The translations under genes and the position numbers were made by a program. The notes beneath the pieces are model-generated. The model saw only the letters and a list, made by a program, of their open reading frames with translations, was not told where the DNA came from and searched no databases. From Caenorhabditis remanei (Eukaryota > Nematoda > Chromadorea > Rhabditida > Rhabditidae): DNA of 64,000 nucleotides. The stretch is from NCBI RefSeq assembly GCF_010183535.1, contig NC_071329.1, positions 8,556,001-8,620,000 of the forward strand, written 5' to 3'. The number at the start of each line of letters is the position of its first letter. Positions within the stretch are counted from its first letter, which is position 1. Positions 17,470 to 64,000 of the stretch are shown here, piece by piece.

Positions 17470-19674
17470 TTAGTGTTTGTGGGAAGTTGGACGAGCCACG
17501 TAGAAGATTGTGGCAGAGAGAGCAGTGGCAACAACGGTTCCGATTCCGAGGAAAGAAGCGAATCCAATTGGTGTCAAGCAGATTCCACTGGATGAGACAC
17601 GACGACGGACGTCTTCTTCAGAGACGAGGGCGGCGGCTTCTGGAGCAGATGGGTTGGCTCCCTGAATTGATTTTTGATTAGTTTCTGAATATTGTTTTAG
17701 CTTTACCTCCATGATGTCCAAAGTGTTGATCTCAACACGAACATCGAGGATTCCTTCATTCTCTCCGAATGATCTCTTCTTTCTGAGTAATCTCAATTGA
17801 GCGAGATTTGCACGAGCAACTGCTGGAGCTGCTGGAGCGGCGGCTGGAGCAGCGGCTGGAACTGCAGCGGCGGCTGGAGAGGCTGCCGGTGCTTCTTCAG
17901 CTCCAGCTTGAGCGATTGGAGCTGCAGCGGCATGAGCTCCTCCAGCACCGGCTTGCTTGACTGCTCCGAATCCTTGTGGCTCAGAGCATGTTGGACGTGC
18001 ACATTCACTTCCTGGATCCTTGATAGTGATAGAGATTTGGCATTGGTAGAAGAGTTGAGAGCGATCAGCGTATTTGTAGACGTGAGCTTCTTGTCCAGCC
18101 ATCAAATCAGTTGGGTACTCCAAGTTATTGAGCAAAAATTTGTCAAGAGCACATCCCTCCTCGTTGAGGATTTGAACGGTGTCACCATTTCCATCATCGA
18201 CTGTGCAAGAGTGAACAACAGCACAGAAAGTGTCAGTTGTCTCTGAATCACACGTCCATTTGTGGTAAACTTGTTGTCCAATGGTAGCGAACTGGATTGG
18301 TTGTCCTGATGGTCCTCCATCAAGAATCTCGTATTTACAGACTGGCATTGGAACAACTTGAGTCTGGAAGGCGGTGGTAAGGTCTGAAACCTCGATTTGA
18401 GTCGAGACGGTTTTGTCGGATTCCATGTAGAAGCATTGGATACGGTAGGCGCTGAAAAGAATGGAAATGTCAAGAGATTTTTGAAATGTTTGTTTCGTTC
18501 GTCGAGAAAACAGAAATAAACAAAAAAGTCCCTAGTTTTTTCTGCATTTTCAATTTCGGAGTTGTCTTTTTTTTTTCTTTAATTCATTTCAAAATCTTTC
18601 TTCTATTATTAAATGTTCTGTGAAGCGTGCTCATTTTCTGGATGATCTAAAAGCGAGGGCGTCGGAGAACAACTGACTCATAGCTCGCCTCGAGCCATCG
18701 AATATTCAATTCTTCTTTTTTTCTCTTGTTTTTTTTTTGTTTTGTTTCCCGTCCCCCGAATAAACAGACATACCGATCGACTTTGGTAACAAATTGAGGA
18801 TGGAATGAGATGACAACAGTTGTGGAAACAAATACTCCCTTTGGATTGAGTGAACGAGTACGGGCAGTGTTACATGAATCGAATGGAAGTTCAATTCCAG
18901 CAACTTGACGACCTCCTTCATCGGATCGGCAACCTGCTTGATCGTAGAGTCCCTTCACATAGACGTGTCCCTCGAATGGATTACGAGTGTTGAAGTTCAC
19001 TGGAATTGTATTTTCGGGTTGTTTCTGACCTAACACTGGGATAGTATGTTACCAGGATACAGGTGTCCCCCTTTATCAACTTCAATCAAACTTGTTTGAT
19101 TATTCCTTAACAAGCCTTTCAAAATTCTGCGCTCATGACGCACTGGTCCCGTTCGTTCTATCTCGAAATCTCACTCTTAATGAGCCGTGACTCGTAGACA
19201 TCCGAAAAGCAAACTCCCTACTATCCTAATTTGAAACGGAATTTCGTAAAATCGGAAGGAAACAAGTTACTAATTTTCGAATTTCCTTATTTTCGAAAAA
19301 TCTTTGGTCAGAATTTCGAAAGCAAACATAAGCGGATTAGGACATGTTGCTTTCAGTTTTTCTCGTAGATGAAATGTTGCAAAAGGAAATGAGAGAGAGA
19401 AGGCTCAAAAATTGAAGACCAAGGCTACGCTGGAGGTTTTGGAAGGTATAGAATCAGTATAGATGGATTTTTCTAAAGAAATAATTTAAACAATGGTTCA
19501 AAAATTATAACTAAACGATCTGGATTAAAATTTTTTTTAAATGCTGAAAAGTATACCAGTGATGGAGTTTGGTCCGCATTCGACCTCTGGCTCTCCTTCC
19601 ACATTGTTATCGACTGGAATTGCAGTTGCCGAGAGAACAAGTGCAGCCAGACAGATGATCGGTTTCCACGTCAT
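17470..19674 (-). CDS. cut-1: cuticlin CUT-1, ZP-domain cuticle protein
   Basis: The gene has four exons, 19557-19674, 18774-18999, 17707-18451 and 17470-17661, giving 426 residues (C. elegans CUT-1 is about 424). Residues 1-18 are a signal peptide (MTWKPIICLAALVLS). A zona pellucida domain runs from about residue 33 to 275, with conserved Cys in VECGPNS, DQAGCRSDE, RIQCFYMES and FYQCQISI. An Ala/Pro low-complexity segment follows (about 280-330), then a furin-type RKKR site at 338-341 and a C-terminal membrane segment (LGIGTVVATALSATIFYV). ZP cuticlins polymerise into the insoluble cuticle; in C. elegans CUT-1 forms a ribbon under the dauer alae. The 45-bp last intron happens to be open in frame (17662-17706), so a naive ORF reads through it. 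The ATG follows an AG acceptor directly, suggesting trans-splicing, although its pyrimidine tract is poor. Confidence 0.95.
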
Positions 19675-34772: not shown

Positions 34773-37700
34773 ATGCGGCGACTTGTACTCTACTTATTAG
34801 TATTCGGCGGAAGCTCTGTTTATGCTTCGAATATTCCTTGTGGAAAGTCATTCATCCCGTGTGAAAATGATATTCTCAATCATCAACAGGGATTGATCGA
34901 TGAAGGTGAGCACGAACTTTCCAACCTATTTGTTTCCTCGGTTCAGTTATTTTGACCTGGGCTTTTCATTTGCAAAAAGTTCATGATCCGAAACCTTTAG
35001 AGTATCTAGGTTATAGGTTCGGAAGGTCGAATGAGATCCCTGATTTTCAAAAACTATTATCCTCATCTCTGATATTCAGGAGCATTTGTATCTCATCGAG
35101 TCCCAGACGGGCTTCTCTTCGTAGCTGCCAAGGAAGGAGAACGAGAATCAGCGAAACTTTTTGACTTCCGAGATGTTGCATTCCAATACTCTGGACACCC
35201 TCTATCTACATCAACTTCTCAGTTCACCAGAATTCACAAAGCCGATAAGAAAGCCTCGGATCGAAGCAGATCCGCTTTCACTTCATTGGCTATCACAAAG
35301 AGATTGACAGCGTAAGTACCACTTTCCTTTATCCCAATCAATTTCAAACTTTTCAGACTAGGCCTTCGTGAAAGAGAGTTAAAGTACGGTCTACCACCTA
35401 ACCAAATCTCCTCAACCATCTCCAACTGCCCAATTCCAACAATCGATCATTGCTTTGCCACCAATTACCGGTACGAATTAGTCAGCATCGTCCACAGCTA
35501 AAGTGTCCAATGTCTCATTTTCACTTTTCTTCTCCGTCGCTTTTCATTGCGCAATCTTATTAAGTAGATAAGCGTCGATGTCGCTTTCGGAAACAGATCT
35601 AGTTCCTCACTGTTTTTTCTCTTTTCCGATAATTCACTTTCATTTTTTGTTTCTTTTCTCCAGATCATTCTCTGGTATCTGCAACAATGTAGCACATCCA
35701 GAATGGGGAGCATCTCATACTCCAATGGCCAGAATCATGAGACCAGACTACTCTGATGGAGTTTCTGAGCCAAGAACTGCTGCAGCCAGTAAACCATTAC
35801 CATCGGTCAGAAGTCTTTCATTAACTCTTTTCACTCCAAGGGGAGAGGTTTGTTGACGAATATTAAGCTTCTAAATATTCACAACAAAACAATTCAGGTT
35901 CACTCTGAAGTGACAACAATGATGGGTCTTTGGATGCAATTGATCTCTTCTGACATGGTCAATGTCGTTTCTTTTCAAGCTGTAAACGAGGGAACGTCGT
36001 CCGCCTTGCCATGTTGCAAACGAGGATTTAATCATTCCGAATGCGATGCCATTGATATACCAGCAGCTGATCCAGCATACAGGTATTAGATATTCAAAGA
36101 TCAGAAAACATGAAATACAATGTTTCAGAACTAGACTGAACTGTATCCCACACGCCCGATCAATAATCGCTCCGAGGGAAGCATGTCGATTGGGGCCAAG
36201 AGAACAGGCGAATTTCGCTTCATCTTATCTTGATGCTTCATTTATTTATGGATCCAATATGGAAAAGGCAAAACAATTGAGAACTTTTAGAAATGGTTTG
36301 TCATTTTCAGTGTAAATACAAAATCATGTTCACTATGTTATTATAGGACAACTCCGAACTGCTGGAAGCATCGGAGAGCTTCCAGCTACCGATGCAACCC
36401 TCCAATGCCAGGCCACTCATTCCAGATGTGCTCTTTCTGGAACAGATGAAGTGAACATCCTCCCAAGTGTAGCTGCTCTACATACCGTCTTTATTCGTCA
36501 TCACAACCGTCTTGCTGATAATCTCAGATCAATCAACCGTCACTGGACTGACGATAAACTGTACGAAGAAGCCAGAAAGATTGTGTCAGCTCAAGTTCAA
36601 CACATCACTTACAATGAGTTCTTACCAGTTCTTTTGGGAAGAGAAAACATGAGAAATTATGGATTGAACTTGCATTCAGCTGGATTCGATTCAAATTATG
36701 AAATGAATTTGGAAGGAACCACTTTCAATGAGTTTGCAGTGACAGTTCCATATTACTTCTGGGCACTTCTTCCTTCTGAGAAATCGTTTGTCGATTTCAA
36801 TAATCCATCGAGACTTTATGAGCAAGGACCAATCCAAATCATTCGTCAATTGTTGAATACCAATATCTATCAGCCGACACTCCGTGCAAATGACGAAGTT
36901 AAAAGTGGATTCTTGAAGGATAATCATGAATTTGGATTAGATTTGATTTCGATTGCTTTGAAACAAGGAAGAGATCACGGAATTCCTGGATACACTGCAT
37001 TAAGAGCAAGTTGTGGATTGGGAAGAGTTAGTTATCTAATCGGATTTTACTCCTTAATTCATAAATGTTACGTTTTCAGATCGCTTCTTTCAACGATCTC
37101 CGTGAAATTTTCCTTCCTGAGGTCAAGTTTGAACACCTCTCGTCTGCCTATCAACGAGTGGAAGATATTGATCTTTTGGTTGGAGTTCTTGCCGAGAAGC
37201 CACTGAAAGGATCTCTTGTTGGACCAACAATGGCTTGTATCATTGGAAAACAGATGCAGAGAGTGAGCATTTTACATTCAATTATTGGTAATAAACGGTC
37301 TTCTTTAAGACAAGAAGAGCTGATCGTTTCTGGTACGAGAACTATTTCGCTCAATCTGGATTCAGTGAGGGCCAACTTTCTGAGATAAGAAACACCAAGT
37401 TGGCTGAAATTATCTGTTCTAATATTGATATTCGAAGAATTCAAAGAAATGTTTTCTTCAGAGAAGACGTTTTCGAGTGAGTATTTTTTTTCCAAATAAT
37501 TTAAGTCATAATACCGAATTCCGTGTTTTTCAGCAACATGGCAATCTCTTGCAACTCAACCGTATTGAGTAGCCCTGACTTCAATGAATGGAGAGATGCG
37601 GAAGGAAAACCAGTATTCCCAATCCGTCAAGAAACTATTGAAAAAGTAATAAGCTTAGCCAAAAGAAATCTTAAGGATCAAGAGAGAAGAGAGATTTCGA

Positions 37701-40070
37701 ATTTGAAACATAATCAAGGAAGATTCCAAAAGGGAGACCCACTTTTTGCCTATTCGAACATGATGAGAGCCAAGGAAGGAGCAAAACAAGTCTCTCAGAT
37801 TTCTGCTCTTCTTTTGGAGACAACAAAGTTATTGATTAAAGGAGAAGGACTTGATACTGATGAACAATTGCCAAAGTTGGATACAAATACTCTTCAAAAG
37901 ATTCTTCCGGATATTGATGTCACTTCATTTGTCAATAATTACACCGCTTTCCTTTCTGAAGATGGACAAGCAAGTCAAGAAGAATGCAGTCCAAAAATGC
38001 TTCCATGTGACCATACAACTCGATACCGTACCTTCAATGGATGGTGTAACAACTTGAAGTTCCCAGAATATGCCAACTCATTCGCTCCACTCCGCCACGT
38101 CCTTCCACCTCAATACGACGACGGATTCGATGCCCCGCGTACTCGTGCCAAGTCAGGAAGATCTCTTCCAAATCCACGTCGAATCTCGAACCTTGTATGT
38201 GAAGATAAAGATGTATCTCATGTGAAATTCACTCACATGGTCATGCAGTTCGGACAACTTTTGGATCACGAATTGACTCATTCGCCAGTTGCTCGTGGGC
38301 CAAATGACGAGATTTTGAATTGTACCAAGTGTGATTCCCCCGAAAAGATTTCAGTTCACTGTATGCCAATTCGAGTTGAGAAAGACGACCCATTCTTCCC
38401 AACCAACTATCCAAATGGAGAACCACGTTGTCTTCCATTCGCTCGTTCTCTTCTTGGACAACTGAATCTTGGATACCGTAATCAGTTGAATCAACTCACC
38501 GCCTACGTAGATGGTTCTGCAATTTATGGATCCACGAAATGCGAAGCGAAGGCGTTGAGACTTTTCACTCGCGGTCTTCTCAATTTCACTGATTTCGGTC
38601 ACGGACAAATGATGTTGCCTCAAGGAAATCAAGAGAAAGATTGCCGATCATCTCAAGAGAAGAGATCGATGCCATGCTTCGTGGCAGGCGATGAGAGAAA
38701 TTCCCATCAACCTGGATTGACAATTATGCACACTTTCATGGTCAGAGAGCATAATCGTATTGCAATGCAATTGTCTGCATTAAATCCACACTGGAATGAT
38801 GATACTGTATTTGAGGAGACTCGTCGTATTGTTGTTGCTGAGATGCAACATATCACTTTCGCTGAATTCCTTCCCAAAATCATTGGATTGGATCTTCTCA
38901 ACGCACAGAATTTGGTTCCTAAGAAAAATGGATATTTCGGTGGATACGATGACACTTGTGATGCATCAATCTCTCAACCATTCGCCACTGCTGCATTCCG
39001 ATTTGGGCATACATTGATCCGAAGAATGTTCCCAAGAATGAATTACAACTACAAGAATATGAGTGAACCTGTTGATTTGGCACAACATTTCGGACACGTC
39101 GGACCATTATATGAACAAGAAAAGGGAGGCATGGATGCAATGTTGATGGGACTTCTCGGAACACCTTCAATGGCGTTCGATCGACATATTACAGATGCTG
39201 TCAGAAATCACTTATTCATGAGAAGAGGAGAGAAAACGAGTGGAATGGATCTGATTGTTTTGAATATTTTGAGAGCAAGAGATCATGGAGTACAGCCATA
39301 TAATGATCTTAGAGAGTTCTGCGGACTGAGGAGGGCAGTAAAATGGGATGATTTGAAGAGTGAAATGGATCAAGATAACATCAATATTCTTCAATCACTC
39401 TATGAATCAGTTGATGATATTGATCTGTTCCCAGGACTTGTCAGTGAGCGTCCGTTGAGAGGAGCTCTTCTGGGAACAACAATGTCATGTATCATTGCTG
39501 AACAGTTCGGAAGACTCAAGAAATGTGATCGATTCTATTATGAGAATGATAATAATGCTGCCAAATTTACTCCAGGGCAGTTGAATGAAATCAGAAAAGT
39601 GAAATTGGCGTCGATTTTCTGTTCGAACAGTAAATATTTGAAAACTATTCAACCAAATGTATTCGATGTAACCGACGAGTTGACGTGAGTTTCTTAGTTT
39701 TGGAACTTTCTTAACTGAAACTAATTTCAGAAATGCTCAAGTACCATGCTCAGATATCCCTCAAGTTGATCTATCCCTCTGGAAAGAAAGAAGTGAGTTT
39801 GGTTTCTATAACAATAATGTTTTTTTTTTCTTCCACCAGAATAAAAATGTGTTTTCAGAGACTTGCGAAATGAATGGAAGAAGCATCGCATTGGGAGATT
39901 CAGTGCACATGACACCTTGTGTAACATGCACTTGTACTCTAGAAGGTGTCGCATGTAATCCAACCAAAGTGGACAGTTGTGAAAAGCTGACACACAAATA
40001 CCTGCTGACCGACATCGCAAAAGACACATCATGTATGATTCAGTGCACTGATTACATGAAGAGGGTGTAA
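34773..40070 (+). CDS. secreted double-domain haem peroxidase with inactive first domain
   Basis: Twelve exons (34773-34905, 35080-35311, 35357-35470, 35664-35847, 35898-36082, 36129-36295, 36347-37026, 37080-37262, 37310-37476, 37534-39684, 39731-39792, 39859-40070) encode 1489 residues. Residues 1-18 are a signal peptide ([18 protein letters not shown]). Two animal haem peroxidase domains follow (about 155-680 and 830-1400), then a short Cys-rich von Willebrand C-like tail (CEMNGRS ... CVTCTC). Domain 2 has the distal motif QLLDHE (His927), catalytic Arg1070 and proximal RFGHTLI (His1174), so it can bind haem. Domain 1 keeps the fold signatures ([21 protein letters not shown]) but has Ser239, Glu373 and Trp477 at the matching positions, so it should be catalytically dead. 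Relatives include peroxidasin and MLT-7-type cuticle cross-linking enzymes; tyrosine cross-linking in cuticle or matrix is the likely process. I believe it matches C. elegans T06D8.10. The 3' end converges with the SARAF gene. Confidence 0.92.
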
Positions 40071-40334: not shown

Positions 40335-41488
40335 CTAGCGTCTCGTGGTTCCACCGTATCCAGAACTTGAGCGGGTGGACGATGTCGAAGGTGAAGCCCA
40401 TGAATCAGAGCTCGAGAAACCCGTATCTTGGAAAAATCCTCTATTGTAGCGTGGACGGGCATAAGCGTTGTTGTTATTCAAAAAACTTGATGCCAAATAT
40501 CCTCCGATCGCTCCTAAACTAGCACCAGTCCAAAATGATCCTCCCTCGCCACTTCTGCCGCTTCCACTTGCTCCTCCACTAGAACTGCCCTGGCTGAAAA
40601 ACTTGACTTGTGTTTAGTATGAGATTTAGGTCACACTCAAAAGACTTACCATCCTCCTCCGGATTGCGAGTCACCGCGAAACCCATATGGTGGCGGTTTT
40701 CCATAGTTGTCGTCATATGGTGGTGGAGCACTTGGGTAGCCACCTGGACCACCACCTCCACCAGAACCTGGTCCTCCTGGACCTCCCGAGCCTCCAGCTC
40801 CTGATTGATAACCAGAATTTTCTGGGCTTCTGTATCTATTCGTCCACATTACATAAATTATGTAAGCAATGAAAGCGACAACAACGAATGTAGCAAATTG
40901 ATCCCATCGATCTTCAGAAGATTTTCGAGATACAGAACGATTTCCACTGCCAGAATTGTACTCTAACTCATACTCAAGACCACATGATCCTCTCAAAATG
41001 TATGGATCATCAGAATAGTCGTATCCCTCGCATGAAACGCTCAACTGAAAAATAAGGTTTTAAAATATTTTCAAGCTTTTCTGATATCTCACCGAACCGA
41101 ACTCCATATCATGAGGCAATTCGGCATCACATTTCCATTGAACATCTGATCCGTCGAAACCTTGATTAGAGCATTGTACAACCTAAGATTTTATTTTTCA
41201 GAGTAGGCAACAACTTTGTTTTAGTTTACTTTTGGTGTGAATGCTCCTTTCGCCGATCCTCCAACACACTTCAACTGGAGTGTAGGTGCAACACGTCGTC
41301 CCGTTGTCATTTGTCCTTTGTTAAGAGTTATTGCTGATACATCTCGGAGAAGAACTTTGTCAGAGGATGCTGAGAAGAAATGTTTTTGATGTCCGTTGAA
41401 AAAAAATCGTACCTGAAGTTTCAAGAAAAACGACCGTCAATACTAAGAACATCCATAGTAGAAAACTTGTTGTAAGTTGAGAAATCAT
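40335..41488 (-). CDS. SARAF (TMEM66) homologue, regulator of store-operated calcium entry
   Basis: Exons 41413-41488, 41230-41369, 41093-41182, 40650-41044 and 40335-40593 encode 319 residues. A signal peptide (LLWMFLVLTVVFLE) leads into a lumenal domain with conserved SARAF features (KVLLRDVSAITLNKGQMTT, VVQCSNQGFDGSDVQWKC, CEGYDYSDDPYILRGSC). One membrane segment sits at about 153-170 (ATFVVVAFIAYIIYVMW). The cytosolic tail is Gly/Ser/Pro-rich, with two PPPY motifs (APPPYDD, KPPPYGF) that could recruit WW-domain ubiquitin ligases. SARAF is an ER membrane protein that slows STIM/Orai calcium entry after store refilling. The gene is divergent from rpn-9, with 939 bp between the starts, and its 3' end meets the peroxidase tail to tail (264 bp apart). 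Confidence 0.88.
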
Positions 41489-42427
41489 TTCTGAAATTGA
41501 AAAATAGCAAAATAATCGATTTCAAGAGTGAATCTGAAGTGTAATAGATAAGAACATAGGACATCATAGATTATTTTTGAAAAGTTAAACTGCGAGAGAT
41601 AGAGAAGAAGAAGTAGAACGTGGGTTGTGGAAGAATGCAGCGGCAACGAGTAATGTGACGTGTAACAACATGCCCCTCAAAAATGAGCAGTGAAGAAATG
41701 GTATTTCGCAATGTATTATATGTATAACTTAGATAAACAGCGAAATGCGTGACTTGTCTGGAATAAAAAGTTCTGAGACATGACATTGGATAAAAAATCT
41801 TCCCGAAACATTTTATCAGAGGAAGCAGAGAGAAGAGGAAAAACTAGTTAATTTTAATTCTCTCGAAAATATTTTAAAATCCGGAAAAAGTTGGAAGTCA
41901 CATTGATACAACAAAACTTCTGTACAGAACCGCAAATTTCAGCAAAATTCCAACTTTTTCTGAAAATAAAAAATCAGCAGCGACGCTCTACCGGATATGT
42001 TGAAGAGATGCGAGACGCAGGAAACGTGGCCGTGGCCGAGAAAATTCTTTTCGTGGTCAGATATTAGGGGTGAAAAATTCTGTGCGCCTTTATTGGCTGA
42101 CAAATGCAATTCAAATCTGAAAAAAAAACGGCTAAGCTGAACTTAAAATAGCTTTAATCTTTAAAAGTTTTCTTTTTCGTATTTTTGAATTGTGTTTTCA
42201 AGCTTGATAATCATATGATATCTCATATTGCATTTGTCATCATTTGTTAATATTTTCTTACAGAACTCATTCATTAACTTCTTATTTAACTTTGATTGAC
42301 TGTCCATTAACTAGCCTAGTAATATAATTCGTTGTATAGTTCCTAATGGTTACCTGTTGAACGTTACGCAGCTCTTGATTTAATATATTGTATCGCTATG
42401 GGCAACGTTTTAGTTAGTTTTTTACAG
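41489..42427. promoter_or_regulatory. divergent promoter region of the SARAF gene and rpn-9
   Basis: The 939 bp separating two divergent start codons carry no gene. There is a GC-richer patch near 42020-42060 (CGTGGCCGTGGCCGAGAAA), then AT-rich DNA up to the TTTTTACAG acceptor that abuts the rpn-9 ATG. TTTGTCAT at 42233-42240 fits the SKN-1 consensus WWTRTCAT; proteasome genes are known SKN-1 targets, but one short match is weak evidence. Confidence 0.4.
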
Positions 42428-43693
42428 ATGGCAATCGAGAAAGTCGACGTTTATCTCTCAAGAAAGCAGAACGCCGCAAAAGGCCCGATCGCGGACGACT
42501 GGAAGACTCTCAATGATTACTATTCTAAAAAGTGAGTTCTCATTTCGAAGCTTCACAAGTAATATAATTTTTTTCAGACTTTGGCATCAGTTGACAGTTT
42601 TGACACGTTCGCTTGTCAAAAAGCCGAAGTTCGTCGCTGATGTCGATTTGGCCGAGTTCTACGATAACTTTATCTCCGAATGGGAGCTTCGTGCCAATCC
42701 TCTTCAGCTCGTCGAAATCTGCATTCCAATTGCTCAAAGCATTGCAACGAAAGACAGACCAAAATCTTTGGAGTTTCTAGCCAAAATTGGGAAGGTTGTG
42801 AATAAGGACAAGATAGCCATTGCTCGTCTTCACACTGGAGAAATCGAATCGAAACTGGAGACAAAGGATCAAAATGGCCAGATTGTCGATCTCAAAGGAA
42901 TCAGAGTTCAAATCGATTCTACCCAACACGAAGTCGATTCTCTTGTCGGCGTCACCGAAGTACATGCTCCGTTCTACCGCGTGTCTTCTCTGTATCTTCG
43001 CGAAGTTGGAGATTTCGCTGGGTATTATCGCGAAGCCTTGCGCTATTTGGGAGTAGAAGATGCCAAAAATCTCTCCGAGGAACAGAAGCAAGTTCACGCA
43101 GTTCTTCTTGGATTTGCAGCTCTCTTGGGTGAGAATGTCCACAACTTTGGAGAATTGGTTTGTTATACGTTTTAAATCTATGCATTTCTACTTTTCTTTT
43201 ACAGCTTGCTCATCCTATTCTCAAATCGCTTGACGGAACCCGCGAGCGCTGGATCGTAGACGTGCTTCTCGCTTTTAACGCCGGAGATTTGCCCCGATTC
43301 TTCTCACTGGAAGGTGACTGGGGAAGCTGGGATGACTTGAAAAGACAAAAAGACTTCTTGACCGCGAAGATTCGTCTGATGGCTATTATGGAACTGGCCC
43401 TCGCTCGTCCGACAAAAGCAAGAACAGTTTCATTCAAAGAAATTGCTACGAAGTGTCAGATTCCATTCGACGAAGTTGAATTTTTGGTTATGAAAGCGTT
43501 AAGCAAAGATCTCATTCGCGGAGATATCAATCAAGTTGAACAGGTTGTGTACGTCTCCTGGGTACAGCCAAGAGTTCTAGATAATGCACAAATTATGCTT
43601 ATGGCTACTCGTGTTTCTGAATGGAGAAAAGACGTCACACTAATGGAAGGAATTGTCAGCAAAGAAGCTCGAGAAATTCTTACCCAAAACTGA
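42428..43693 (+). CDS. rpn-9: 26S proteasome lid subunit RPN-9 (PSMD13)
   Basis: Exons 42428-42531, 42578-43157 and 43205-43693 give 390 residues (human PSMD13 is 376). The N-terminal two thirds are helical repeat sequence (WHQLTVLTRSLVKKP, YYREALRYLGVEDAKNLSEEQ). The C-terminal PCI domain includes SFKEIATKCQIPFDEVEFLVMKAL followed by the winged-helix end RGDINQVEQVVYVSWVQPRV. RPN9 is a structural subunit of the 19S regulatory lid that helps position the deubiquitinase RPN11. The ATG directly follows TTTACAG, so the mRNA is probably trans-spliced. A canonical AATAAA at 43857 ends it about 120 bp before the next gene's acceptor, the classic operon arrangement. Confidence 0.95.
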
Positions 43694-46561: not shown

Positions 46562-47939
46562 ATGTGGCTTTTAGCCAGCAAACAGCTGACGAAGTTTTCA
46601 CAGCTGCCAAGAGTTTCTCTGTTAAATCAGGGATATCAGAACGTGAAACAAGGCTTCCGCCGGAATTTGGGAATATCCGTGAAAGATGTGGATGAAAAGT
46701 CAAGAAAAAGAATTGGATGGTGGCTAATGGGATGTGCTGGAATGTGTTACGGAGCTGTTGCTCTTGGTGGTGTCACCAGGTAAGAAACGATATAATTCTT
46801 TTTCAAAACTACGCAGTCTTTTCCAGATTAACAGAATCCGGGCTCAGTATGGTAAACTGGGATCTGTTCAAGACGATGAAGCCACCATTTGGACAAAAGC
46901 AATGGGAGGAAGAATTCGAAAAATACAAAGCATATCCAGAATACAAATTGTGTGTTTCATCGCATTTTGCTTTCTTTGAACTATATTTTCAGCAAATCAT
47001 CAAATCAAGAAATGACATTGAACGAATTCAAATTCATTTGGTCAATGGAATACGGACACAGAATGTGGGGTAGAGCCATCGGAATCGTCTTCTTGCTTCC
47101 GTGTGCATACTTCTGGGCACGTGGAAGATTTGCGCCTGATATGAAACGACGAATGGCTTTGGCAACAACCCTTTTGTTGGCACAAGGTGGAATCGGATGG
47201 TGGATGGTCAAATCAGGGCTCGATCCATCACAAAATTCGTCCGATGTACCGAGAGTTTCTCAATACAGACTTGCAACTCATTTGACAATGGCATTCGTTC
47301 TTTATTCAATTTTCTACTGGAATGGTCTCACACATCTTTTGAAGCCACATGATGTAACTCGTTTGTGTTGCTTTATGGTATATATTACACCTTTGTTTGC
47401 AGCTCACAGCAGTTCGATCGAAACTTGGTGCTCTTCGTGGAATGACTCATTGCTCCAAATTGATGGTTTTCTCGACTGCTATCATGGGAGCATTTGTGGC
47501 CGGTCTCGATGCCGGTCTTGTTTATAACTCGTGGCCGAAATTCGCAGATAAATGGATTCCCGAAAATATGTTATCTCGATCTCCAGCATGGAAAAACTTC
47601 TTCGAAAATGACGTGACTGTTCAATTTGTTCATAGAAATCTTGCTTATCTCACAGTTGTCAGTGTACTGGCCACATTCCTCATCGGTAGACGAGCTCCGA
47701 TTCCAAAACGTACACGAATGGCTCTGAATTTGACGGTTGCTGCGGTATTTGGACAAGCCGCTCTCGGAGTTTTTACTCTCGTAAGAAAATAAAACATTTA
47801 AATAATTCTGCAATTTCAATTTCAATTCCAGATTAATTATGTTCCTGTCTGGCTCGCAGCGTGTCATCAATCTGGCTCAATGGCTCTTCTCTCTTCTGTT
47901 CTGTGGCTCAGTCATGAACTTCGTCGACTACCAAAATAG
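46562..47939 (+). CDS. cox-15: haem A synthase COX-15
   Basis: Exons 46562-46779, 46827-46949, 46993-47353, 47403-47780 and 47832-47939 give 395 residues (human COX15 is 410). The N-terminal 50 residues are basic and Ser-rich, as in a mitochondrial targeting sequence. Eight membrane helices follow; the first is [20 protein letters not shown]. The four haem-binding His are visible: [27 protein letters not shown] and AACHQSGSM. The enzyme converts haem O to haem A for cytochrome c oxidase. An ATTCAG acceptor lies 5 bp upstream of the ATG, so it is probably the fourth gene of the string. Its 3' end converges on the CEP104-like gene, with 161 bp between stops. Confidence 0.95.
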
Positions 47940-51297: not shown

Positions 51298-54036
51298 CTA
51301 GTACTGATATCCACCATTCTGTTGAGTTTGTTGTGGTGGGCTGATTGTTCGATGGAAGGATTCTGTTGTTGTCGTCACCTCGTACTGACGATCCCGGTTA
51401 CGACGATGACGTGGCATTGTGCCGTCAGCTCTCACCACATCTTCTTCGTATACTCTGCAAAAAGAGTGGAAGAGTATGAGAGCGTTGAGGAGAAAAGAAC
51501 TTACTCATATTCTTCCTTTACTGATGGAGCCTGAACACGTGGCAATCTGAACCAACTGAAGAAGGGAGACACTCGTTCTTCTTGCACAATTGGAGTACGT
51601 TCGACGGTTATGTGATAGACTTCTTGGAAGCAGAGAACACAATAACACTGGAATAAAAACAGTTACTTTAGATTTCTAATATAAGAAAAACTCACCAAAA
51701 ACCAAGCCATGAAAACTCCAATAACCCACGCAACCCAGATATCACGCCAATGATTTTTGTATCCATTGATACGTGAGAACGAGTCGACAATGCAGAGTCC
51801 GATGAAACCGAAAATAAGAAGTGGACGAAGAAGTGGAGCACCACGCAGGTTGATCATGTAGTAGATGTAGAGCTGAAATTGAATTTTAGTCATTTATGAA
51901 GGATGAAAAAAAACTGACAGATGCAAAACAAGCAGCGTATGATGAGACGACGGCGTGAAGAGATGGGAATGTGAGCCATGCGTAACGGAGTTCATCGGCA
52001 CCTCTGAAAGAAAAAAGTTATATTTCAGTATAATATAGAATTGGTAAAAAGTAGTAAAACTAAAAATAGTTCACCTGTAGTTGCAAGCAAGATGAGGAGA
52101 TGGAGATGGAGAGTGTTCCAATGGAGCTGTGCAGGCACTGGAAATATTAGAAGTTATTTTCAGAGTGATAGATTTTTGAAATATGGAATAGCTTGCGAGA
52201 AAAATCATAAACAAAAAACATACGTGATAGAAACATTGCAGAGTGACAAGAAGTACGGTCTCTGGTATCCAGTCATCAGCTTGATAGTGTCAACGAAAAT
52301 CTGAACGATCAAAAGACCGGCCAAATAGATAATGACGAAACGGAAAAGTCTTCTGGTGAAAAGATGAACTGGACATTCTCCACAGTTGGCGTAGACAATC
52401 TTCCTTGGCTTCGTACTGAATAGCCAGAACATAACTTCTCCAATCAGGATGACAAGTGGTGGGATTGTGAATGCAAGAGTGTAGAGTAAGGGATAGGAAA
52501 CGTATACATTGAAGTCTTCTGGTACAAAGTTTGGCTTGTAGAGGTGAACATCACGACAGTAGAACACACGGTGATGGTATGGGAAAACACTGGTGAACCT
52601 GAAAAAAATTTGCTGTTGTTTTCGGATTGTTACAGAGCTCTATCTCCTTTTCCAAAAATTATTTCATTTTTTAATGTGAAGCCTCAGCGATAGTGACAAA
52701 ATTGATCACAAACAATCACTCAAACATTTGGTTATATTTTGGTAATCATCGGCTTTGGTGTTGAGAGACGCACATTGACTACCCCTACTGCAGCAGCCGA
52801 CAACTTGCGGGTTCCGCCGCCCGCTATACTTTGTGTGTACGTTGGCCCCGCCCACATGTGGGCTGTGTAACATTGGCAAGGCTGTGGGGAAAGGAAAGCA
52901 ACTGATGAGTAAGAACAGTTACGTTATGAAAAAAAACGAGATTTGCTGATTAGAAAACTTCGAAAGAGCCAAAAATTGAAAATAATCCAGATTTTTATTC
53001 GTTGTACAGAATTATTTCTGTTTGGGAAATACCGTAAGAATTTCTCACAACGATTTTTTAAAAACTTCAGTATTTTTCATATCTAAAAAATATTTTTACT
53101 CCTTTCTCAACTTCAAAATCCTCAGAAGCATCTTGAAAATAAGAGTTTTGTTTCACTAGATGCCAAAGTTCTAAATGTTTCTTGTTGCACATTTTTAGTG
53201 AGTGCTCATCCTATTTCTCTTCTCCTATTTTGGGCAAAACAAACGAGTGAAGATGAAGAAGACAATGCGAAAAGCTTCCAAAATGGTCAAAGTATTGTGT
53301 TTGTTCAGCTTTTGGCTGACCGCACCCGACCCGTTGTTTTACACCGTTTCTCTCAATTTGCGACAAACACTTTTCTGTTTCTCTCTAATCAAAACTCAAG
53401 TAATTTCGAATGATAATGACCATTTGAGCCGAGCAAACAACAACTTTCTCTAACTCCTTTTCACCCTATTTGCCGTATTAATCTGTCACCCTCGATAAAG
53501 AACAATAAGGAACTGTCAAAGAATATAATAAGGGAAAAGAGAAAGAGAGATTACCTCAAGTAGTACCAAAGAGCAGCGAGACATGCAATTCCGACGACGT
53601 GAAGGACTGCAGATGGAAATATGAAATAGTTGATGTAGGCACGGGGTCGTGGAGCGGGTACTGTGGTCACACCTCCGTATTGGCTCGCCGAGAAAACCTG
53701 TGAAAATGAAAAAGGTTTATTAGTGAAGGGACCAGTGCTTGAAAACTTTAGAAACTGTTTATTGGTTGTAATTGAAGTTGCTATACTGGAACAACATTGA
53801 TTTGCTTTTGACAAAAGTTTCAACTATCGTTATTTCTAGATCTTTCCAAAAACTCTGAACTCAAACTTTTGAGAAGATTCGTTACAAACTTTAAACTAGT
53901 GAATGACTCACAAAAAATCAGAATTCAATTGAAATCCGGAATGTATTTGTTCAAATACTAGGACACCTTTTCAGATACTTTTTTCGCTTTTTCAAAAAAT
54001 TACCTCGGAGTGTGCCCGCGAAGGTGGCACGGACAT
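51298..54036 (-). CDS. phospholipid phosphatase-related (PLPP/PLPPR) membrane protein
   Basis: Exons 54004-54036, 53555-53697, 52224-52598, 52075-52137, 51919-52003, 51696-51872, 51505-51647 and 51298-51454 give 391 residues. Six membrane segments of the PAP2/LPP family are visible (AVLHVVGIACLAALWYY, LLYTLAFTIPPLVILIGEVMF, FVIIYLAGLLIVQIFV, and three after the second catalytic motif). Motif C1 is intact (K165 ... R172-P173 in KLMTGYQRP). C2 is PSLH (His221) instead of PSGH. C3 reads SRINGYKNHWRD, with Asn273 where the phospho-accepting His should be. Active LPPs need that His; the catalytically silent PLPPR proteins carry Asn there (YRNHWSD). The protein is therefore probably an inactive lipid-phosphatase relative, although C1 looks enzyme-like. 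The cytosolic tail is charged and Gln/Tyr-ending. Probably C. elegans T06D8.3. Confidence 0.85.
52780..52870. promoter_or_regulatory. GC-box, CCAAT and E-box palindrome inside intron 2
   Basis: The 956-bp second intron of the phosphatase-like gene contains GGGTTCCGCCGCCCGC, then TGTGTGTACG, then GGCCCCGCCCACATGTGGGC with a perfect CCCACATGTGGG palindrome, and CATTGGC (inverted CCAAT). The same kit of motifs precedes other genes in the window, so an internal promoter for a shorter isoform, or an enhancer, is plausible. Confidence 0.35.
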
Positions 54037-56260: not shown

Positions 56261-59200
56261 TTAATTGCCAGAACACTTTACACATTCGATACTAATTGGC
56301 AGCAGAGAGTCGTGGATTTGTGTGGCAACTTCTTGAGGACACGTTTCCTCGGTTACTGGTTCCCGAGTCATTGAGCAAATCTTTGTGTTGTTTTCATATT
56401 TGGCCATTGTGCATTTCATATCTGAGCACAGTTTGGCACAGTCTTGAACGTTTTCCGCTTTCTCATGAACCTTCATTGTTGGCATCGTCCTTGTTGGTGT
56501 TACCGGACGAATGTTGTAGGTACAAGCTGAAATTTAGAATTTAGCTGCGTCTGATTAGATAAGAGTTTACATGTGCATCTGATGCAAGACACCACGAATG
56601 GATGGAGAGCAGCGTGTTGGGGAACGAAGTCGGCGAGGTTACCGCAGACGACGTCGTCAGATGTTAGGAGACAAACTCCTTGAGCAATGGTTCCTGATGG
56701 AGATGGAATGAATCCAGCTGTTTTGCAGTGTTCCTGAAAAAAAAAACAATCAGAGAGGGTTTCTTAAAGAGATTCTTACAGTCTCAAAGCATTTTCTTGC
56801 ACAATCAGCTGGAGAAGAAGCAGGAACATCGTTCGTGATATTCAATTTAGGGAGACTAGCCACTGGGATGACTTGGAATTCTACTCTTCCGTCACATTTT
56901 GAGCTTACTCCTGTGAAAATAATTGAATACTTGGAAACTCGAGTGAGACAATTACCTTGGTGAATTGGGGCATTCTCAGAGCTGGATGGCTCATCAACAG
57001 AGAATGACGTGATGTCATGAGCCTTCTTCTCATCAGCTGAAATCAGAATTTTTGTTAGAGGATGTCATTAGTATTTACTACTTTTTAACTACGTCTACAT
57101 ACTGAAGAGATAAAAATTGGTTTTGAAAGTTGGTTGAAATTATTATCACTACGAGTTTATAGTATTAAAGTAATGATTGATTGAGGTGAGTACTGATGGA
57201 GGTGAGTGTTGATAGTCAGGGTTTCCGCTTATCCTAAGTAACTATTAGCAAAATTTGCTTTCTGAAGTTTATATTCCCACTTCGAATATGATAACTTTAA
57301 CTGAAATCTTGTTACAGTCGGCATAATTATCTTGTCTATCGTATTACAATGAATCCTTACTCAAAAATAAAATAACTTCGTATAACTTTTCCTTAACCAA
57401 ATGTATATATTTTTCACCAGACTTACGTATTTTTGGTGTGCTTTTTGGGTTGTGACATGAGTAACGTGATTCACAAGTGTTTGACAGAATTTTACAAGGA
57501 ACACTATCAAATAGATTAATCAGTGATTGATTGAACACACAGTTATGTATACGGTAGTAAGTGCGATTGGTCAGTTTTTCGGGTTTTTACATAGGGTTTA
57601 CAGAGGTCCACATAGGATTTTTTTTAGAAAGACTTTAGTTTAAATTTCTTTGAAATTTGTTCACATTAACATACCACACGTTACACAATCAATTGCGACA
57701 ACTTGATTGATTTTGGTGAAAGTCCACGAGGTGGTTGGGACAACATCAGTACAATTAGTGTCAAGATGGGCCGTCTTTTGATCTGCATAGTGCATCAGAC
57801 ACACAGGACGTGGGAATCGAGTGAATGCAGCACGAAGACACGAAGTCTCGTAGCACATACGAGCACAGTGCTCCAGAGAGAATGCGACGGCGTCACGTTC
57901 AAAGTGTTGACTCAGGTCGACCATCTCGGAGGCTACGAAACGGACTCTGCCAGTGGTGCACTCTTCAAAATATTAGGGGCGATACAGAAAACAAATTACT
58001 GAGAAGTTGGGTTAAAAACTATTAGAACAGAGGGGTTTGATAGCTAATCAAATAGGTTAAAAGTACGCGGACATACCATGTTTATTCTCAATTGCTTGAG
58101 GTAGTAGTCGTTGAATTGGACCTAGAATAGTTGTGATTGGTTAGTTGGGTTTTGTGATTTTAGAATGATTTAAAGACAGAAGTTAGTTTACTTACTAAGT
58201 TTTCGGTTGATTAGGTCTTGAGCAGCTTGAGATGTTGGTTTACGTGGTCTTCCGAGGACGAAATCTAGTCCTCCTGCCGCCAAAGCATCAATCAAATCCT
58301 GAAAACAGAAAATGAAGATTTATCAGAATTAATAGTTTTTACTTTCACAAGCTGAACAGGTGGCTCAGTCGTCGATTCAGAAACTTCTGTGGTGGTTGTT
58401 GGTTCAGCAGTTGTGCTGTCTTTCTTGGAAACATTATCTTCATAGTCATTTGTCTGAAAAATTAAAAATTGGCACTCGAAATTCAATATTTGTCACAAAC
58501 CTTTGTACCAGACTCTTCTTCCTCTTCTTCCTCATCTTCACTCTTTGGTTTTGGCTCTGAAGATGGAACAAATCCAACGTTATTAGGGAGATCTTCTCTG
58601 TGAGTGTCGCCGATTAAACTCTGAAAATTTGTTTCAATTCAACCAAATCCAACTAAATTTTTCTGACCTTATTAAACATGGTTTCATCAATACCCGTCAA
58701 GAATGCATTAGTATCAGATCCTTCCTCTTCAGAACCATCTTCATCGCTATCAGTAGTCTTTTCAGTTACAAATGATGAAGATTCAGTTGTTGATGATTCT
58801 TCATCCTTTGATTCAGCAGCAGCAGCAGCCCCACTTCCTTCAACATCAGAAGTGGTGGAAGATGATGAAACTGTTGTCGACTCTTCTCCACTTCCCTCTT
58901 CAACTGGTGTTTCAGAAGAGGTAGATGATTCAGAAGAAGATGATCCGGTGGTGGCCTCGATGTGTTCCTCTCCACTAGATTCGGCTGTAGCAATCGAAGC
59001 TTGGCTTGTCTCTAATGTAGTTGTTTCTTCTTCTCCACTTGATTCTGTGTTCTTTGTTGTCGACGAAACTGTTTCTTCTGCCGATACAGTACTGACTTTA
59101 ACTGATTCTTCAATGATAGTTTGAGCGGTGGTTTCAACACTGAAGGGCGTAGTTTCTTCACTTGTATCAGTTGTTTTCGTAGAAGGTTCAGTTGGTGCGC

Positions 59201-62200
59201 CGGTCACAAACGCTGGCTTATCATCGTCTTCTCCTCCAGAAGTAGTCGTCTCATTTTCTTCAGTGGGTGCAACAGTTGTAGTTTCTCCTACAGACGCAAC
59301 AGCAACAGCAACGGTGGTGGATTCTACTCCTGAAGCTTCGGTCACAGTAGTCGTGGTAGTCTCCTCTCCAGACGCTTCGGTGACTTGGTCATCTTTTGAG
59401 GGACTCACTTTCTCATCTTCTGAAAGAGCTACTTCACCAGATCCTTCTGAATCCGTAGTTGCCGTTAAATTCACACCCTCATTTGCTGCCAGTTTAGCAA
59501 GATCTGCAGCGAATTGCTTGCCGAGTTCTTTAGCCATTTTTATATTTTCATCCTCAACTCCGGTGCCTTCTGTTGTTTCCTCTGTTTGAGAAGTAACTGT
59601 AGATGTTGACACCTCCTCACTTGTAATTCCACCGTCAGTAACAAATGCTGGCAAATCTTCATCTTCCTTTTTGTCGCCAGATTCTTTTCCTGTGTGGGGA
59701 TCGCTCACAATTTTTTTCTGAGCAACTTCCTCAGTAGATGAAGTTGATGATTCGACCGTATCGGTGGTTAATGCAGTTGATGAAACAGCAGGTTTTGGAG
59801 TGATCACAGGAATGCTGGGATCATGAGTGGTAGTAGGTTCAGAATCGGACGATGACGGAATTTCAATCTCAGAACCAGTGACAAATGCTGGTCCTTCTGT
59901 TGTGGTGGAATCAGTAGCAGTAGTAGTTTCTTCTCCGGAAGCTTCAGTGACGGCAGCAGTTGTGGTCTCCTCTCCGGAAGCTTCAGTGACGGCGACAGTT
60001 GTCGACTCTTCTACGGAAGCTTCAGTGACGGCAGCAGTTGTGGTCTCCTCTCCGGATGCTTCAGTGACTGCGGCAGTTGTGGCCTCTTCTACGGACGCAA
60101 CGGCAACATCAACGGTGGTGGATTCTTCTCCTGAAGCTTCGGTCACAATAGCCGTGGTAGTCTCCTCTCCAGACGCTTCGGTAACTTGGTCATCCTTTGA
60201 GAGCTCAGACGGAACTGAAGTTGATGAAACGGCTGGTTCTTCACCAGATGCTTCAGTTACGGCGGCAGTAGTAGCTTCTTCTCCGGAAGCTTCAGTGACG
60301 GCAGCAGTTGTGGTCTCCTCTCCGGAAGCTTCAGTGACGGCAGCAGTTGTGGTCTCCTCTCCGGATGCTTCAGTGACTGCGGCAGTTGTGGCCTCGTCTA
60401 CGGACGCAACGGCAACAGCAACGGTGGTGGATTCTTCTCCTGAAGCTTCGGTCACAGTAGCCGTGGTAGTCTCCTCTCCAGACGCTTCGGTAACTTGGTC
60501 ATCCTTTGAGAGCTCAGACGGAACTGATGTTGATGAAACGGCTGGTTCTTCACCAGATGCTTCAGTGACGGCGGCAGTAGTAGCTTCTTCTCCGGAAGCT
60601 TCAGTGACGGCAGCAGTTGTGGTCTCCTCTCCGGATGCTTCAGTGACTGCGGCAGTTGTGGCCTCTTCTACGGACGCAACAGCAACAGCAACGGTGGTGG
60701 ATTCTTGTTCTGAAGCTTCGGTCACAGTAGCCGTGGTAGTCTCCTCTCCAGACGCTTCGGTAACTTGGTCATCCTTTGAGAGCTCAGACGGAACTGATGT
60801 TGATGAAACGGCTGGTTCTTCACCAGATGCTTCAGTTACGGCGGCAGTAGTAGCTTCTTCTCCGGAAGCTTCAGTGACGGCAGCAGTTGTGGTCTCCTCT
60901 CCGGATGCTTCAGGGACTGCGGCAGTTGTGGCCTCTTCTACGGACGCAACAGCAACAGCAACGGTGGTGGATTCTTCTCCTGAAGCTTCGGTCACAGTAG
61001 CCGTGGTAGTCTCCTCTCCAGACGCTTCGGTAACTTGGTCATCCTTTGAGAGCTCAGACGGAACTGATGTTGATGAAACGGCTGGTTCTTCACCAGATGC
61101 TTCAGTTACGGCGGCAGTAGTAGCTTCTTCTCCGGAAACTTCAGTGACGGCAGCAGTTGTGGTCTCCTCTCCGGAAGCTTCAGTGACGGCAGCAGTTGTG
61201 GTCTCCTCACCGGATGCTTCAGTGACTGCGGCAGTTGTGGCCTCTTCTACGGACGCAACGGCAACAGCAACGGTGGTGGATTCTTCTCCTGAAGCTTCGG
61301 TCACAGTAGCCGTGGTAGTCTCCTCTCCAGACGCTTCGGTAACTTGGTCATCCTGTGAGAGCTCAGACGGAACTGATGTTGATGAAACGGCTGGTTCTTC
61401 ACCAGATGCTTCAGTTACGGCGGCAGTAGTAGCTTCTTCTCCGGAAGCTTCAGTGACGGCGGCAGTAGTAGCTTCTTCTCCGGAAGCTTCAGTGACGGCA
61501 GCAGTTGTGGTCTCCTCTCCGGATGCTTCAGTGACTGCGGCAGTTGTGGCCTCTTCTACGGACGCAACGGCAACAGCAACGGTGGTGGATTCTTCTCCTG
61601 AAGCTTCGGTCACAGTAGCCGTGGTAGTCTCCTCTCCAGACGCTTCGGTGACTTGGTCATCCTTTGAGAGCTCAGACGGAACTGATGTTGATGAAACGGC
61701 TGGTTCTTCACCAGATGCTTCAGTTACGGCGGCAGTAGTAGCTTCTTCTCCGGAAGCTTCAGTGACGGCAGCAGTTGTGGTCTCCTCTCCGGATGCTTCA
61801 GTGACTGCGGCAGTTGTGGCCTCTTCTACGGACGCAACAGCAACAGCAACGGTGGTGGATTCTTCTCCTGAAGCTTCGGTCACAGTAGCCGTGGTAGTTT
61901 CCTCTCCAGACGCTGCGGTAACTTGGTCATCCTTTGAGAGCTCAGACGGAACTGATGTTGATGAAACGGCTGGTTCTTCACCAGATGCTTCAGTTACGGC
62001 GGCAGTAGTAGCTTCTTCTCCGGAAGCTTCAGTGACGGCAGCAGTTGTGGTCTCCTCTCCGGATGCTTCAGTGACTGCGGCAGTTGTGGCCTCTTCTACG
62101 GACGCAACAGCAACAGCAACGGTGGTGGATTCTTCTCCTGAAGCTTCGGTCACAGTAGCCGTGGTAGTCTCCTCTCCAGACGCTTCGGTAACTTGGTCAT

Positions 62201-64000
62201 CCTTTGAGAGCTCAGACGGAACTGATGTTGATGAAACGGCTGGTTCTTCACCAGATGCTTCAGTTACGGCGGCAGTAGTAGCTTCTTCTTCTCCGGAAGC
62301 TTCAGTGACGGCAGCAGTTGTGGTCTCCTCTCCGGAAGCTTCAGTGACGGCAGCAGTTGTGGTCTCCTCGCCGGAAGCTTCAGTGACGGCAGCAGTTGTG
62401 GTCTCCTCTCCGGAACCTTCAGTGACGGCGACAGTTGTGGTCTCCTCGCCGGAAGCTTCAGTGACGGCAGCAGTTGTGGTCTCTTCTACGGACGCAACAG
62501 CAACAGCAACGGTGGTGGATTCTTCTCCTGAAGCTTCGGTCACAGTAGCCGTGGTAGTCTCCTCTCCAGACGCTTCGGTAACTTGGTCATCCTTTGAGAG
62601 CTCAGACGGAACTGATGTTGATGAAACGGCTGGTTCTTCACCAGATGCTTCAGTTACGGCGGCAGTAGTAGCTTCTTCTCCGGAAGCTTCAGTGACGGCA
62701 GCAGTTGTGGTCTCCTCTCCGGATGCTTCAGTGACTGCGGCAGTTGTGGCCTCTTCTACGGACGCAACAGCAACAGCAACGGTGGTGGATTCTTCTCCTG
62801 AAGCTTCGGTCACAGTAGCCGTGGTAGTCTCCTCTCCAGACGCTTCGGTAACTTGGTCATCCTTTGAGAGCTCAGACGGAACTGATGTTGATGAAACGGC
62901 TGGTTCTTCACCAGATGCTTCAGTTACGGCGGCAGTAGTAGCTTCTTCTCCGGAAGCTTCAGTGACGGCAGCAGTTGTGGTCTCCTCTCCGGAAGCTTCA
63001 GTGACGGCGGCAGTTGTGGTCTCCTCGCCGGAAGCTTCAGTGACGGCAGCAGTTGTGGTCTCCTCTCCGGAAGCTTCAGTGACGGCGACAGTTGTGGTCT
63101 CCTCGCCGGAAGCTTCAGTGACGGCAGCAGTCGTGGTCTCTTCTACGGATGCAACAGCAACAGCAACGGTGGTGGATTCTTCTCCTGAAGCTTCGGTCAC
63201 AGTAGCCGTGGTAGTCTCCTCTCCAGACGCTTCGGTAACTTGGTCATCCTTTGAGAGCTCAGACGGAACTGATGTTGATGAAACGGCTGGTCCTTCACCA
63301 GATGCTTCAGTTACGGCGGCAGTAGTAGCTTCTTCTCCGGAAGCTTCAGTGACGGCAGCAGTTGTGGTCTCCTCTCCGGAAGCTTCAGTGACGGCAGCAG
63401 TTGTGGTCTCCTCTCCGGAAGCTTCAGTGACGGCGGCAGTTGTGGTCTCCTCTACGGACGCAACAGCAACAGCAACGGTGGTGGATTCTTCTCCTGAAGC
63501 TTCGGTCACAGTAGCCGTGGTAGTCTCCTCTCCAGACGCTTCGGTGACTTGGTCATCCTTTGAGAGCTCAGACGGAACTGATGTTGATGAAACGGCTGGT
63601 TCTTCACCAGATGCTTCAGTTACGGCGGCAGTAGTAGCTTCTTCTCCGGAAGCTTCAGTGACGGCAGCAGTTGTGGTCTCCTCTCCGGAAGCTTCAGTGA
63701 CGGCGGCAGTTGTGGTCTCCTCGCCGGAAGCTTCAGTGACGGCAGCAGTTGTGGTCTCCTCTCCGGAAGCTTCAGTGACGGCGACAGTTGTGGTCTCCTC
63801 GCCGGAAGCTTCAGTGACGGCAGCAGTTGTGGTCTCTTCTACGGATGCAACAGCAACAGCAACGGTGGTGGATTCTTCTCCTGAAGCTTCGGTCACAGTA
63901 GCCGTGGTAGTCTCCTCTCCAGACGCTTCGGTAACTTGGTCATCCTTTGAGAGCTCAGACGGAACTGATGTTGATGAAACGGCTGGTTCTTCACCAGATG
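56261..64000 (-). CDS. giant secreted-type Ser-Gly repeat protein with C-terminal PAN-like modules, 5' end missing
   Basis: The exon from 58668 runs open to the window edge (at least 1777 codons). It is followed by exons 58501-58620, 58343-58453, 58196-58298, 58077-58121, 57675-57962, 56956-57036, 56780-56910, 56571-56733 and 56261-56526, all in phase, adding 435 residues. The big exon encodes a Thr/Glu/Ala/Ser-rich array built on 13 residues of the type VTEASGEETTTAA, then a less regular Ser/Thr/Glu region with four PAFVTG-like motifs. Three Cys-rich PAN/Apple-like modules end the protein (LEHCARMCYETSCLRAAF; ADCARKCFETEHCKTAGF; VQDCAKLCSDMKCTMAKY), each closing with a C-x-x-C (CVTCG, CIRCT, CVKCSG). 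Ser-Gly with acidic neighbours is the chondroitin attachment pattern, and Thr runs suit mucin glycosylation, so a cell-surface or matrix proteoglycan is likely. Probably C. elegans T06D8.1-like. The signal peptide lies outside the window. Confidence 0.8.
59932..64000 (-). repeat. coding satellite: 39-bp monomers in 270/309/387-bp higher-order units
   Basis: The DNA is a continuous minisatellite reaching the window edge. The basic monomer is 39 bp (13 residues). A recognisable spacer encoding VSSTSVPSELSKDDQ recurs about 13 times, near 60211, 60521, 60791, 61061, 61370, 61679, 61949, 62219, 62609, 62879, 63266, 63575 and 63962. Distances are about 270, 309 or 387 bp, that is 270 plus 0, 1 or 3 monomers; one 390-bp unit has an extra GAA-type codon. 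Copies are nearly identical even at silent sites, so the array has been homogenised recently. Array length may be collapsed in an assembly. Confidence 0.93.

Follow-up and report, generated by a model that had tools for sequence, protein, structure and literature searches.

A gene for a putative giant chondroitin proteoglycan core was identified on the minus strand of a 64,000-nucleotide stretch of Caenorhabditis remanei contig NC_071329.1 (positions 8556001-8620000, hereafter the window; contig C2 of a 130.5 Mb assembly of 186 contigs), which was analysed together with the 20 kb past its end. The gene is here called srap-1 after its presumed C. elegans orthologue. Its sequence suggests that SRAP-1 is a giant secreted chondroitin proteoglycan core, aggrecan-like in principle and held in the apical matrix by PAN modules at its ends, a reading to which we give a probability of roughly 0.6. 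The gene family is already known; its proteoglycan nature would be new, as far as our literature search shows. That search found no paper tying srap-1 to chondroitin; among the matches listed, only PMC3362295 names srap-1, and the closest to a PAN-bearing chondroitin core were papers on LET-653 and other matrix proteins with both PAN and ZP domains. Statements attributed to papers, cited by PMC number, refer to the excerpts of them that were available.

Gene model and the Ser-Gly array

The gene model, made from sequence without transcripts, has splice sites picked by eye and checked against relatives. It consists of 25 coding exons in a single frame encoding 4424 amino acids, with the coding start at 75683, the last protein-coding base at 56264 and the stop codon extending to 56261 (window coordinates, minus strand). 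GT and AG borders are found at all 24 introns, once one boundary was moved by one base. From N- to C-terminus the protein comprises a signal-peptide-like start, six PAN modules, an array of 2605 residues and three more PAN modules. The first-pass annotation of the window had proposed a search for a signal peptide in an upstream exon as a check on its reading; the N-terminus does possess a hydrophobic, signal-peptide-like stretch, FLISAVTLILISTTFSEA, preceding KPLNLPQTI, as judged by eye and by hydropathy. No other 15-residue segment of the protein is as hydrophobic as the one found here, and the database relatives P0009-P0012 likewise start with a hydrophobic stretch followed by a sequence related to KPLNLPQTI. 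Hydropathy showed no hydrophobic C-terminal tail in the model.

The array lies in one exon of 9143 nt (67810-58668, minus strand) that crosses the window end. The first-pass annotation had placed the array at 59932-64000, where it is real; that end is merely where the window cuts it, as the full array runs from 67721 down to 59907 (7.8 kb, residues 972-3576) with no stop and no frameshift. When translated, 59932-63998 yields 1355 residues that include 78 Ser-Gly, where about 10 would be expected for the same residues in random order. EASGEE accounts for 72 of them, and 43 TTT triplets are interspersed, so the earlier description of about 75 Ser-Gly, nearly all in this context and mixed with Thr triplets, was accurate. 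Tandem Repeats Finder reported a 39-base unit in about 104 copies (59916-63929). The array unit has at least 33 matches in the genome (such repeat counts are lower bounds), and those reported all lie inside one open frame of 3061 amino acids. An open frame of 1391 amino acids also crosses the array on the plus strand (59827-63999, SSPEASVTAAVV repeats); this frame was set aside as a gene, being the complement of an in-frame 39-base repeat.

The whole model holds 171 Ser-Gly, 152 in the array and 19 outside it, with 90 of the codon pairs within the window and 81 past its end. Ser-Gly dipeptides follow each other at 13 residues in 101 of 151 intervals. Among 178 thirteen-residue units, 152 carry Ser-Gly, 25 Ser-Val and one Ser-Glu; therefore some units are not candidate sites. 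The filter that defined the units required Ser, so that its presence in 178 of 178 holds by construction. We infer that every position of the grid bears Ser from the gaps between Ser-Gly (13, 14, 25, 26 and 39), which are accounted for by an insert and by SVEE and SEQ units. The Ser-Val unit (mostly VASVEE, once SVDE) recurs at a fixed position in almost all of the near-identical supra-units; at this conserved position Ser-Gly is lost and S-x-E kept.

A stringent attachment motif for C. elegans chondroitin, E/D-G/A-S-G, has been described in PMC8418075, where CPG-10 to CPG-24 are tabulated. The Ser-Gly context, proposed in the first-pass annotation as a glycosaminoglycan site, matches this motif: 155 of the 171 Ser-Gly fit it, against about one (maximum 7) when the residues outside the PAN modules were shuffled. 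The sites of one array are copies of each other, and these counts are therefore not independent events. Could the sites carry heparan sulfate instead? EXTL3, the enzyme that initiates heparan, is favoured by acidic residues on the C-terminal side of Ser-Gly (PMC10570366), and the array has them. According to the same source, however, chondroitin is the default with the vertebrate enzymes and heparan requires additional features, extra acidic residues and Trp among them; the array offers just two Glu after Ser-Gly and no Trp, and its motif agrees with mapped worm chondroitin sites (PMC8418075). Heparan sulfate is thus considered very improbable.

The main alternative is a plain mucin as published, its Thr and Ser carrying short O-GalNAc glycans only and its Ser-Gly rarely or never xylosylated. 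SRAP-1 has been termed a predicted mucin (PMC3362295), and a Ser/Thr-rich repeat region is indeed present: the array is 23.2% Thr and 12.5% Ser, and the protein has 113 TTT against 36.9 expected. Pro, however, makes up only 1.9% of the array (Lys 0.9%, Arg absent), and a mucin leaves unexplained the Glu-Ala before and the Gly after Ser in most units, as well as the synonymous bias of the core described below. A mucin and nothing else is accordingly rather unlikely. The two readings can both hold, and a mucin-type coat is likely in addition to chondroitin chains.

Features of the locus inside the window are collected in Table 1.

Table 1. Features at and next to srap-1 within the window.
Feature	Position	Strand	Basis
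Ser-Gly array, part within the window (goes on to 67721); 13-residue units VTEASGEETTTAA, grouped into supra-units of about 90-130 residues	59907-64000	-	Translation; Tandem Repeats Finder
3' part of array exon, Ser/Thr/Glu-rich, five more [DE][GA]SG sites	58668-59906	-	Gene model
Four linker exons (58501-58620, 58343-58453, 58196-58298, 58077-58121), first two acidic/Thr-rich	58077-58620	-	Gene model
PAN module 7, 8 Cys	57676-57960	-	Cysteine pattern; Pfam PAN_1 16.6 bits, below cut-off 21.4
PAN module 8, 8 Cys, two exons	56575-56896	-	Cysteine pattern; Pfam PAN_1 23.4 bits
PAN module 9, 8 Cys	56273-56524	-	Cysteine pattern; Pfam PAN_1 26.3 bits; AlphaFold model and fold search
Neighbouring PAP2-like exons, synteny marker for C. 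elegans T06D8.3	51663-52639	-	Open frames with KLMTGYQRP, PSLH and SRINGYKNHW; Pfam PAP2 E 0.018, below cut-off

Conservation of the motif

Comparisons with database relatives show that the model aligns at 54% with C. auriculariae P0009 (over residues 32-944) and at 42% each with Necator P0019 and Cylicocyclus P0011, rising to 50-53% with the latter two over the last 436 residues. Full-length relatives share the layout of PAN modules, an array and three further PAN modules. The motif was enriched in seven of twelve relatives, each of which beat all 200 of its own shuffles: Necator (28 motifs), Cylicocyclus (27), C. auriculariae (12), Pristionchus (11), Angiostrongylus cantonensis (8), Gnathostoma (4) and A. 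costaricensis (3). The short pieces P0002-P0008, with no motif, were left out of this test, and a short Diploscapter fragment (0 motifs) showed no excess over its shuffles. Residues 1124-1163 of P0009, in the Ser-Gly repeat of C. auriculariae, match Pfam DUF6894 (E 1.4e-13), possibly through composition only.

Site number varies strongly among the relatives. An EASGEEP core is common to several of them while the flanking repeats differ, and on this ground the site type is taken to be ancestral and expanded in individual lineages, not to have been invented independently. Within the array, codon changes were counted along a minimum spanning tree of 38 distinct unit sequences. The codons of the E-A-S-G-E-E core show 22 synonymous and 8 non-synonymous changes (expected synonymous fraction 0.23), and those of the TTTAA tail 17 and 12 (expected fraction 0.33); codons with more than one change were excluded (2 in the core, 8 in the tail), and p-values are rough because the units copy one another.

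These results bear on two further readings of the array. The first holds it to be a minisatellite expansion in a tolerant spacer, its sites without special modification, as the near-identity of the supra-units and the great differences in site number would suggest. An open frame kept through 7.8 kb, the synonymous bias in the core and the same motif in relatives with a different flanking repeat speak against it, and we regard it as highly improbable; growth of the array by slippage is likely, and is compatible with function. On the second, a secretory kinase of Fam20C type would phosphorylate the sites (S-x-E), giving an acidic phosphoprotein. Nearly every unit fits S-x-E, the SVEE units included, the protein has 195 S-x-E against 84 expected (with overlap with SGE), and one Fam20C-family gene is found in the genome, on contig C6. 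However, S-x-E without Gly beat the shuffles in none of the 11 proteins of this test (P0001 and P0013 were left out) and is low in the present protein, 37 against 79. Sites of [DE][GA]SG not followed by Glu are enriched in two of the 11 (C. auriculariae and Pristionchus), as would be expected of the chain motif but not of S-x-E. On these shuffle results the phosphoprotein was set aside as the principal interpretation, and there is little chance that it is correct.

PAN modules

The 72 cysteines of the model fit nine PAN-like modules of eight cysteines, called by a cysteine-spacing pattern of our own, six upstream and three downstream of the array; the three modules counted in the first-pass annotation were thus only a part of the set. 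Pfam PAN_1 scored above its cut-off in six of seven scanned pieces, module 7 falling below. Ten modules each were found with the same spacing pattern in the Necator and Cylicocyclus relatives. The AlphaFold model of module 9, the only module modelled, has a pLDDT of 68, and a fold search with it gave weak matches, the best at E 0.008 and thus none reaching 0.001, to what we take to be largely PAN/apple proteins. The N-terminal Link-type and C-terminal C-type lectin domains that mark aggrecan and the lecticans were not found in the scanned pieces, where only PAN scored above cut-off, nor in P0019 and P0011; a ZP domain was likewise not found in the scanned pieces or in P0019, P0011 and P0009.

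Identity of the gene and gene order

T06D8.1 has been named srap-1 and described as a predicted mucin that has PAN domains and a multiple repeat besides a signal sequence (PMC3362295); a signal-peptide-like start, PAN domains and a repeat region were all found here. In C. elegans the gene lies on chromosome II in a 40-kb interval whose only other complete genes are T06D8.3 (PAP2) and F37H8.5 (GILT), and extra copies of T06D8.1 suppress the lethality of rol-3(s1040) (PMC3362295). The best of nine GILT matches in the C. remanei genome lies about 7 kb upstream of the first srap-1 exon. A genome search for PAP2 gave seven matches, none at the srap-1 locus; the PAP2-like exons of Table 1 are presumably PAP2, an assignment made from sequence motifs. 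From the architecture and this partial synteny we conclude that C. elegans srap-1 is probably the orthologue of the present gene. H43E16.1, considered as the C. elegans counterpart and listed in papers as mucin-like, was set aside when gene order favoured T06D8.1, and filarial Bm18019 was set aside as a relative, neither having been compared by sequence.

Family matches were also obtained for SARAF (40649-41059, minus strand), PSD13 (42414-43172, plus) and COX15 (46880-47524, plus); rpn-9 and cox-15 are genes of the C. elegans T06D8 region and would extend the synteny. Elsewhere in the window, open frames for animal haem peroxidase (36316-37203 and 37505-39685, plus strand; Pfam E 5e-57 and 3e-191) and one with a Cuticlin C-terminal domain (CUT_C; 17473-18531, minus strand), another gene of apical matrix type, were identified.

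A proposed chondroitin carrier

Matches to the CHGN (chondroitin synthase) family are present on contigs C1 and C3, and 23 matches to the Branch family, which we take to be the xylosyltransferase family, are among those listed for the genome. On the proposed mechanism, the predicted signal peptide would be cleaved and the unstructured array would pass through the Golgi, where xylosyltransferase would prime many of the approximately 150 E-A-S-G-E-E serines and chondroitin chains would be built on those occupied; the Thr runs between the sites probably carry short O-glycans. At about 0.35 nm per extended residue, the 2605-residue core could reach up to about 0.9 µm if fully extended, with side chains about every 13 residues. 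The disulphide-rich PAN clusters at both ends would hold the molecule in the apical matrix, where it would bind water and resist compression, as aggrecan does in cartilage. Such anchoring is made plausible by LET-653, whose PAN domains attach to the loose matrix of the lumen, about where chondroitin proteoglycans reach their highest abundance (PMC4970718).

Several points weigh against this reading. The chains on SRAP-1 are predicted, and PMC8418075 cautions that the motif by itself is ambiguous: some proteins bearing it were not detected, and its sites may seldom be occupied or may bear heparan sulfate. The 24 cores identified, CPG-1 to CPG-24 as given in PMC11632948, do not include SRAP-1; even so, an array so poor in Lys and free of Arg would come out of a trypsin digest as very large peptides. 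T06D8.1 RNAi caused no lethality in the wild type (PMC3362295), which would fit redundancy among several core proteins. C. elegans SRAP-1 was not returned by our protein searches. A search for the Xylo_C family was empty in this genome; it was also empty in control genomes and is therefore uninformative. Among the relatives, Haemonchus (3 motifs) and Parelaphostrongylus (2) only tie their shuffle maximum, Haemonchus passing within its repeat, and a partial Necator entry (1) has no excess. The PAN-bearing Onchocerca flexuosa relative P0017 (1435 amino acids) is without any E/D-G/A-S-G; possible explanations are loss or absence of the array in filarial worms and an incomplete gene model. Taken as a whole, the chondroitin carrier proposed in the first-pass annotation is partly supported.

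Comparison with known matrix proteins

C. elegans SRAP-1, compared by its published description, shares with the present protein PAN domains, a multiple repeat region, a signal sequence (signal-peptide-like here), a GILT neighbour and, presumably, a PAP2 neighbour, and differs in being described as a predicted mucin only (PMC3362295). CPG-1 to CPG-24 are secreted proteins with the E/D-G/A-S-G motif; SRAP-1 has the same motif, its secretion and its chains being predicted. In contrast to SRAP-1, no PAN domain appears for them in the domain table of PMC11632948, and CPG-10 to CPG-24 are listed with one or two sites per protein (PMC8418075) against about 150. LET-653, NOAH-1 and CUTL-18 resemble SRAP-1 in having multiple PAN domains and belong to the nematode apical matrix, but carry the ZP domain. 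Membership of the CPG series should await a demonstrated chain; our claim is that SRAP-1 would work like aggrecan.

Aggrecan, too, has a long, Ser-Gly-rich disordered region flanked by globular ends, and carries about 100 chondroitin sulfate chains (PMC11942259). The first-pass annotation had envisaged an extreme bottle-brush proteoglycan; 'extreme' stands for the number of predicted sites, about 150, and not for their density of one per 13 residues. SRAP-1 differs from aggrecan in this wider spacing, in ends showing only PAN and in its animal lineage, and worm chondroitin is described as mostly unsulfated. The resemblance is regarded as convergence, not kinship.

Significance

Chondroitin inflates the lumen of the worm vulva. 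According to PMC10802606 the core proteins that carry it there are unknown, and according to PMC7544507 they await assignment; they are probably several (PMC10802606, PMC7544507), and FBN-1 is the single core that PMC11304992 connects with the shaping of the vulva. Work by Noborn in 2018 is said to have predicted 19 extra cores. We tentatively suggest, as a doubtful extension of the proposal above, that SRAP-1 is a nematode aggrecan: a convergent bottle-brush of about 150 chains with PAN heads at both ends, and one of several missing cores of the matrix that swells in the precuticle and the lumen of the vulva. How far the matrix swells in each species might then depend on array length, which changes by whole supra-units, and the single SVEE unit of each supra-unit might be a built-in gap free of chains. 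The SRAP-1 family offers a concrete candidate for a vulva core whose predicted sites outnumber the chains of aggrecan, and a 'mucin' linked genetically to rol-3 is recast as a candidate proteoglycan. If the chains are present, the design of aggrecan would have arisen twice.

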